A stretch of 64,000 nt of DNA from assembly GCF_000003815.2 (NCBI RefSeq), contig NC_049982.1, forward strand, positions 22,651,063-22,715,062. Reading direction: 5' to 3'. This document shows, in pieces, positions 44,501-47,500 of this stretch. The position numbers were made by a program, and so were the translations under genes. The number at the start of each line of letters is the position of its first letter. Within the stretch, counting starts at the first letter, position 1. Source of the stretch: Branchiostoma floridae (Eukaryota > Chordata > Leptocardii > Amphioxiformes > Branchiostomatidae). The notes beneath the pieces were generated by a model. That model saw only the letters and a program-made list of their open reading frames with translations. It ran no database searches and was not told the DNA's origin.

Positions 44501-47500
44501 GTGGCCTTAGACTAGAAGCTGACAGTGGTTATCAGTCTGTTAGATAAAGGAGACCTATGGATGAGAAAATCTGTTTCAGACTTCAGTCATGAACCATGAT
44601 GGGGGGATATAAATTTTTTACACTACACATGTACAGCAGCGACACCTAGCTGCAGTGTTTTCCACTGCAGCATTTACCTGTTATAGTGTCTAAATTCACA
44701 CTCCACTATCCTGCCGGCTCAATCTTGATCACTTACGGCAAATCATCCAACACAATTCAAGCCTAACTATTGTACTGAAATGGATAATAACCGCACACAC
44801 ACGTATGTCTATCCATTCATGACAGAGATAGGTCACGGAATACTGATCAGGTCTGCTTCCAAATCAATTCTGACATGGTGCCTCTGATATCAAAATTACA
44901 TCAGTTCATGCAGCACAATTAACTCAGCTATGACTCCCGGCATGGCTTTTTCATTTGCTGTAATCATGATACCTCATTTATGCAGCGGTAACCTCCATGA
45001 TGGTGATACAAAGATGACTTTCAACACAATAATACTACAGTTACATGTAAATGAGTGCTGTCTCCTTTATATAAATGACCTTAAGATAGAACTGGACATG
45101 TGCCAAGATGTCCATTTCATAGATTGGATATCAGATACTGATATTTCATAATCCAACTTATGCATAGACTTCATACCATTGCAAAACTAATGGAAATGAT
45201 ATTAGATGATGGAAGAGGCTGTTTGATGTGGGAAAAGATGATTTCTATTATAATGCAGACGAGGATCTAGCATCTGAAGTTATGACATACATTTTCCATC
45301 ATAACTGCTAGCTATAGGTCAGCAACAGATTACAACAGATGTATACATTTACGTTCATATTTCCTTTTAAATGTTTTCTTCATGGAAAGTACCTAACAAT
45401 TGTCAAACTGGGACTAGATGAGTAGTACTACGAGGAAGTTTGATCACGTAATGGAGTGACACCTGTCATTAATGATTGCCTTGTAACTGTAAATTTACAT
45501 ATACTATAGCTTCTTGTCATCCTTGCTAACTTGATGTATTAAGGCCAGTTCTTCGCTATCTTGATGGGCCCAAATAATGAATGACCAAATTCTTTTCTCT
45601 TGGCTACCAAGACATATATCCTGTAGCATGGTTTATAATAATTATCATAAACATTGTAATCTGTGAAATTACCCCGCTGAGTTGATTATAGTTGTTACTA
45701 AATATAAAACACAGAGTGTCTGAGACTGGGACAGGATGTCAAAGATGAGTCCAAAAAGACTGGGTTTTCTGATCATCGTATTTAGGGACACTGACTTTCA
45801 GGAACTCCTGAAAAACGGCTACATGTGTGCTGTGAGTGTGTATTATCCGCATGTGTATTATCAGGGTTTGTAGCTAGGTAGCACATTTTTTGCGAACAGG
45901 CCACAACGCTAGAATTTGTGACCAATACCCTAACATGAGGACCACTACGCTATGTCGTGGCTAGAGCCCTGATTATCCGTGAGTGGTAAAATAAACAAGT
46001 GAAATGAATGAAAGGTTCAGGTATAACGTGTCTGGTGCAGGTGTTTGGTAAAATACTTTGTTTGTCAGGTTCAATTTTACATCGCTGAAATACCACTGGC
46101 AAATGACTTGTCCTAAATATCTTCAGGGCTCCTTTGGAAATCAGTTATTGTAACTGAAGGCTCAATAAAGATTCATGTCGAGGAATAGAAATAAAGAAAT
46201 TTGTCTATAAAAAATTTAAAACGTTAACAGCTATCATACAATCAAAATACTAAATTTGTACATGATTGCATTTCATTCACATAATAATATAACCAGTCCA
46301 CCTGCACATACAAAGAGGCCTGTGTTTGATCGTTTTCCATTATTGTATTTCATGATTGTATATCATGGACCCCGGCAGACTGTTTCATTGATTTTGACCT
46401 TTATTCCCCTTTGAGCAATTCCCAAGCTGATTGCCAGATGTTTGGGAAACTCCATGATAAGCAGATTAAATCAATACAACGTTATTTTTCATACATCAAG
46501 ACATGCTTCAAACCAACAAAGTCACTTTGACCATTGTGAGAGAGTTCGACTTCGAGTTCATTTTTATCACATGTGAAAGGCTTTTAATCATTGTACACAT
46601 TTAACTGTAATACAAACCACCACACATTCTACATGTACTGGTATGATGTGAGGTATAGTTGACTCACATGTAGCCATGTACTGGTATGATGTGACTTACA
46701 TGTAGCCATGTACTGGTATGATGTGACTTACATGTAGCCATGTACTGGTATGAAGTGACTTACATGTAGCCATGTACTGGTATGATGTGACTTACATGTA
46801 GCCATGTACTGGTATGAAGTGACTTACATGTAGCCATGTACTGGAATGATGTGACTTACAAGTAGCCATGTACTAGAATGATGTGACTTACAAGTAGCCA
46901 TGTACTGGAATGATGTGACTTACATGTAGCCATGTAACTACATTACAAAAAAATGTACATGTAGCCATGTACTGGAATGATGTGACTTACATGTAGCCAT
47001 GTACTGGAATGATGTGACTTACATGTAGCCATGTACTGGGATGATGTGACTTACATGTAGCCATGTACTGGGATGATGTGACTTACATGTAGCCATGTAC
47101 TGGAATGATGTGACTTACTACATTACAAAAAAATGTACATGTAGCCATGTACTGGTATGATGTGACTTACATGTAGCCATGTACTGGAATGATGTGACTT
47201 ACATGTAGCCATGTACTGGAATGATGTGACTTACATGTAGCCATGTACTGGTATGATGTGACTTACATGTAGCCATGTACTGGAATGATGCCAGCATGAG
47301 CTGAGGGGAGATCTTGGGCTTCTCGTCTGCTGGACGGAAGGCTGAGAAATCTTGCAGCACCCGACGGTTTGGAACCTTATTCTGGAACTTGTTGTCAACT
47401 GAAACAACATCGTACAGAAAACAGTTAGTCATAGATAGATAACACACATGGTATAGCACATAGATGACAGATTGTATGGCATCCGTTGGCCAATATTGAC

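Follow-up and report, generated by a model that had tools for sequence, protein, structure and literature searches.

The analysed window, a 64,000-nt stretch within a 34-Mb contig of a 513-Mb assembly, carries on its minus strand a gene that predicted domains and homology show to be of the CNNM, or magnesium-transporter, type. The coding part of exon 1 (1327 nt, 57311..58637) begins at the presumed ATG and contains the Pfam matches CNNM and Ig_CNNM4_N, and exon 2 (50126..50269) is placed by reading frame and join. Exon 3 (132 nt, 47267..47398) is placed in the same way, with additional support from homology to CNNM2/CNNM4 chains and a match to the Pfam family CNBH_CNNM2_C, while exon 4 (257 nt, 43405..43661), for which homology and frame agree, starts at the last of several acceptor copies. 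Between the latter two lies intron 3 (3605 nt, 43662..47266), with multiplied donors at its start and multiplied acceptors at its end. Joined, exons 1-4 encode a 620-residue product with matches above the Pfam cut-off to CNNM, the CNNM4 N-terminal Ig-like domain and CNBH_CNNM2_C (residues 513-618), and matches below cut-off to CBS and cNMP_binding. Against solved CNNM4 the protein join of exons 3 and 4 is gap-free, with small gaps elsewhere in the alignment; taken with the expected domains in the joined exons, this argues that the coding sequence preceded the arrays described below. A C-terminal CNNM coding exon lies within the open frame at 28942..29685 on the same strand. We take this frame to be part of the same CNNM gene, which would then continue beyond exon 4.

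Frame and alignment at this join agree with the original prediction on the gene, its strand and the end of exon 3. The split codon T|CG that it placed at the join also stands, but the residue is Ser-535, Thr being residue 534. An alternative end of exon 3 at CCA|GTACAT, named there as the finding that would overturn this model, lies 14 nt upstream and is, by simple arithmetic, in the wrong phase for exon 4.

Several other features were observed in passing. Elsewhere in the assembly the CNNM transmembrane family has a single scored match (L003, G000:C9:9571395-9571670), which is partial with one TAA inside and may be exon-split or decayed. Within the window, an 11-bp array of about 104 copies at 62844-63987 (ATACCTTGGTC) holds long plus-strand open frames of YLGHTLVIPWS-type repeats, and a 632-codon open frame on the minus strand at 3355-5253 has apparent CCHC zinc knuckles and is, by eye, of retroelement type.

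The boundary of exon 3 and intron 3 is spanned by a 32-bp minisatellite on the minus strand (46660..47290; 20.0 copies with 86% matches by Tandem Repeats Finder). The original prediction had extended this array to 46630, with about 19 donor copies and the last ~23 nt of the exon in each unit. The array and its ladder of donors are real, although what lies at about 46630-46655 is, by eye, only a degenerate partial copy without a donor; units with a donor number 18, and by motif and frame positions each comprises 22 nt of exon tail and 10 nt of intron, the last 22 nt of exon 3 being the exonic part of unit 1. Seventeen of the donors read GTAAGT and one, at the far end, GTGAGT. Their first G lies at 47266, 47234, 47202, 47170, 47118, 47086, 47054, 47022 and 46990 for donors 1-9, and at 46923, 46891, 46859, 46827, 46795, 46763, 46731, 46699 and 46667 for donors 10-18. 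Inside the array GTAAGT occurs 17 times in 0.63 kb, whereas the rest of the window's minus strand has only 14 in 63.3 kb, or 0.22 per kb. An assembly search with the array region matched only itself, but such a search skips simple repeats, so uniqueness of the unit does not follow.

Five of the 18 units, the coding one among them, are identical to the consensus, eight carry one mismatch, two carry two and one carries four; the remaining two (nos. 5 and 10) are hybrids adjoining a T-rich insert. Most variable is a position that forms the middle base of a Phe codon in the exon; T stands there in 8, A in 6 and C in 2 of the 16 non-hybrid units. A higher-order repeat of 180 bp runs within the array and includes the two T-rich hybrid units, a pattern suggestive of past unequal exchange. 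With U1, each of the 18 donors has a predicted duplex energy between -5.4 and -5.6 kcal/mol. This is moderate pairing, matched or exceeded by 8.6% of the 8027 GT sites counted over the window's two strands, and the donors of exon 2 and exon 4 pair better (-7.1 and -10.2). We considered whether the first donor is stronger than the others and rejected this, the predicted pairing being equal across the ladder.

At the other end of the intron, and absent from the original prediction, a 113-bp array of 3.9 copies (43628..44069, minus strand; Tandem Repeats Finder and motif positions) crosses the boundary with exon 4. Its unit repeats the intron end and about 47 nt of the exon 4 head in four copies, each with the acceptor AG|CGATCGA and first exon bases at 44001, 43888, 43775 and 43661. 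The last of these acceptors opens exon 4 itself; the others lie upstream, each with a copied exon 4 start, and each opens an exon 4-like frame that runs into TGA just before the next acceptor. Copies 1-3 contain CTAAC where the productive acceptor has CTAAA. By consensus we take CTAAC to be the better branch-point-like motif, so that the inner acceptors do not stand out as the weaker ones. Between copies 2 and 3 there are 3 differences in 112 nt, and between copy 1 and either of the two there are 10, whereas the three upstream copies show 7, 8 and 9 mismatches to the true exon 4 head over 46 nt. Six codons of that head differ in all three copies, every one synonymously, and the other differences, one or two codons per copy, alter the residue. 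Few as these sites are, they suggest that the true exon changed under protein-level selection after the copies arose. The intron next to exon 4 differs less from the array (about 4 of 68 positions and one indel, by eye against copy 3, again few sites; 43405-43730).

Eighteen donors and four acceptors allow 72 pairings, and only that of the outermost donor with the outermost acceptor stays open through exon 4. The other 71 meet a stop between codons 554 and 626, nearly all early inside the CNBH match at 513-618 and one at 626. Each of the 17 inner donors fails to keep the frame open through exon 4, whichever of the four acceptors it is paired with, in line with the original expectation that the 32-bp period shifts the frame for later donors. 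The ATG-TAA frame noticed earlier in the unit is likewise real: read as TAC-ATG-TAA, it stops donors 4-18 at codon 557. With equal U1 pairing among the donors and similar acceptors, position and exon context must make the choice, or splicing leaks. Intron 3 is in this respect a natural experiment on splice-site choice, offering 18 donors of equal U1 pairing and four similar acceptors with one productive pairing in 72.

We propose that intron 3 of CNNM carries at each end a mirage, the name given in amphioxus genes to tandem duplications of exon/intron boundaries (PMC3087553 and PMC3902484, in the passages available), as two separate minisatellites in which splicing joins the exon-adjacent sites and discards the inner copies with the intron; we consider this reading probable. 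Tandem duplication of the boundary would have made each minisatellite, with replication slippage or unequal exchange extending both arrays into the intron from where the boundary first lay. The spliceosome would pair the exon-adjacent sites and treat the inner copies like any other intron sequence; leakage to inner sites would be slight at most and would be cleared by nonsense-mediated decay. Some leakage is made realistic, as against fully inert inner sites, by human IFI6, in which two downstream repeat donors are used according to the relevant passage of PMC4526556. Outermost-site use in CNNM is what reading frame and homology point to; since predicted U1 pairing cannot distinguish the donors, exon context, such as exon length or exonic enhancers, is the likeliest cue. 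The arrays probably change little while the outermost signals are used, and by analogy with the published loci it is plausible that their copy number varies between individuals.

In both CNNM arrays the unit spans the exon/intron boundary, as in mirages. A second property of mirages, that the boundary unit escapes homogenisation, is seen at the acceptor array, where the exon unit stands 7-9 of 46 nt apart and copies 2 and 3 differ at only 3 of 112, but not at the donor array, where the coding unit equals the consensus. Because homogenisation differs in this way, we take the two arrays to be separate events. If the window's six arrays of period at least 20 were placed at random, both ends of one intron would fall in arrays with a chance of 0.0009, at least two of six junctions with 0.028 and at least one with 0.10; these figures are post hoc, concern three introns and do not establish a link between the two arrays. 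We also scored seven CNNM junctions, none of them beyond exon 4, by the best ungapped 32-nt match within 1.5 kb, with 150 random places as control (mean 18.7, 95% value 25.1, maximum 32). The donor of exon 3 reaches a score of 32. No further boundary repeat emerged at the exon 1 donor, either junction of exon 2, the exon 3 acceptor or the exon 4 donor, which score 17-18, near the control mean. The exon 4 acceptor reaches 22, below the 95% value, so this test alone would have missed the acceptor array; the low score probably reflects the diverged exon side and an indel.

The original prediction, which drew no connection to mirages, left two options, a strongly positional choice of donor or tuning of CNNM output by unproductive splicing. 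Positional choice is favoured by the other mirages (PMC3087553 and PMC3902484, as far as the passages available go); tuning draws its support here only from the 71 of 72 pairings that would be unproductive. If the ladders did tune output, transcripts using inner sites would stop early in the CNBH domain and be degraded or yield truncated protein, and copy number would set their share. The equal U1 pairing of all 18 donors fits this, as do the CTAAC motifs of the inner acceptors, lacking from the productive one, and the position of the 71 stops, inside the CNBH match or just beyond. Decay would be plausible given the additional CNNM coding exon past exon 4, and IFI6 is an instance of inner repeat donors in actual use (PMC4526556, in the passage cited above). 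However, the passages available from PMC3087553 and PMC3902484 report mirages without effect on regular splicing, and the 71 alternatives at CNNM are all dead ends that offer no second productive product. Regulation of CNNM by unproductive splicing is possible, but we judge such tuning unlikely. Less likely still in our estimation is a double ladder acting as a copy-number-dependent attenuator, in which inner sites would compete for the spliceosome and unstable arrays would make individuals or tissues differ in productive CNNM mRNA.

The order of events could also be reversed, the array coming first and the exon boundary moving into it, whether by intron sliding or by gain through a repeat-born splice site, as for globin introns. 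The globin paper does propose that mirage units may turn into new boundaries (PMC3087553, in part), but the end of exon 3 and the start of exon 4 in CNNM align with CNNM4 without a gap, which implies that these coding residues are older than the array and makes this reading very improbable. Also very improbable is an assembly error in the copy number of a real array, or an array that is wholly artefact: the globin authors call one mirage aberrantly assembled in their genome draft (PMC3087553) and PGBD5 copies differ between two assemblies (2 vs 7 and 3 vs 6; PMC3902484; both as given in passages of these papers), yet the units here carry distinct variants and two hybrid units in a 180-bp higher-order repeat within a 34-Mb contig, even if these do not fix the exact number. 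We retain as the preferred reading a mirage at each end of intron 3.

Boundary repeats may be common in this genome. Twenty arbitrary 10-kb stretches (191 kb without N), partly hand-picked at later steps, yielded 53 arrays of period at least 10, 23 of them of period at least 20 and covering 6200 bp (3.2%). We inspected the reading frames of 14 of these 23 and ran six open frames against Pfam: one match lay above cut-off (KIF26A/B-like), one, of ADAMTS type, lay below it, one was a weak match to a viral membrane protein that we disregarded, and three frames had no match. In two of the 14 the array reaches across what is probably the end of an exon. The tail of an ADAMTS-like exon, together with a donor, recurs in L018 (7103-7511) at 7167, 7303 and 7454; the frame matches Pfam Adt-1 at 26.2 bits (cut-off 31.8) over residues 34-77, where the exon would end, matches ADAMTS_CR_2 and the tick salivary family Salp15 also below cut-off, and has no match among solved structures. 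In L004 (1612-1738, minus strand) the tail of a KIF26A/B-like frame occurs three times, followed by GTTAGC or GTCAGA, and the Pfam match (46.8 bits, cut-off 27) lies well upstream of the tail. Both are probably further mirages, their exon ends being drawn from open frames and partial homology. Two cases in 191 kb correspond to 10 per Mb (Poisson interval 1.3 to 38) or, as a rough extrapolation, 650 to 19,000 genome-wide. Separately, an array of a 246-bp unit at L022:1308-1986 (consensus start TTCTCTCTTTCTCAG) could be a mirage on the acceptor side; Pfam gave no match for the one open frame submitted. If this small sample is representative, lancelets would be a rich natural experiment for positional splice-site choice and intron gain.

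In human IFI6 (6-16) the minisatellite unit keeps the frame. A minisatellite with multiple splice donors was reportedly described there by Turri in 1995. Use of two downstream repeat donors in IFI6 gives three mRNA species, according to the passage of PMC4526556 at hand, and IFI6 shares with CNNM a minisatellite that offers several donors. Unlike it, CNNM has a 32-bp unit that shifts the frame, and with every inner donor leading to a stop the reading frame yields no further productive isoforms of the IFI6 type. The human 844ins68 allele of CBS duplicates the intron 7/exon 8 junction, with the more distal site strongly favoured and the upstream copy removed (PMC2630376); the passage in question says 'splice donor', whereas a title among its references says 3' splice site. 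On this partial account it resembles CNNM in its duplicated boundary and differs in being a human polymorphism with one extra copy at a single end.

The closest parallels are the mirages of amphioxus globins, Adh3, TnC and PGBD5, whose features we take from passages of PMC3087553 and PMC3902484. BflGb6 has one on the acceptor side of exon 2, with 6 units in one haplotype and 3 in another, and BflGb9 one on the donor side of exon 2; Adh3, from an earlier report, shows somatic instability (cited in PMC3087553). In PGBD5, described together with TnC in PMC3902484, repeats of 60 bp and 108 bp lie at splice sites and vary in copy number between assemblies. Globin RT-PCR and Adh3 data suggest that regular splicing is undisturbed, and the repeats have been proposed as a source of new introns (PMC3087553). 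These loci and CNNM alike have a boundary duplicated in tandem, whether at the donor or at the acceptor, with their splice signals present many times over. In length the 108-bp PGBD5 unit comes near the 113-bp acceptor unit of CNNM (PMC3902484), and the Adh3 units of 10-72 bp bracket its 32-bp donor unit (PMC3087553, PMC3902484). Of the papers listed for amphioxus and CNNM together, none concerns the structure of this gene by its title or abstract opening; subscription papers lay mostly outside reach, and we make no claim that the locus is unreported. The CNNM double array is a further case of a kind already described in lancelets. It differs from BflGb6 (acceptor), BflGb9 (donor) and PGBD5 (repeats at different exons), as the passages available describe them, in having both ends of one intron affected and an 18-copy donor ladder. 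A double-ended mirage in one intron may be unusual, although the Adh3 paper (Canestro 2002) may already contain such a case, and it is with boundary repeats at the two ends of a single intron that the finding goes beyond the earlier description.
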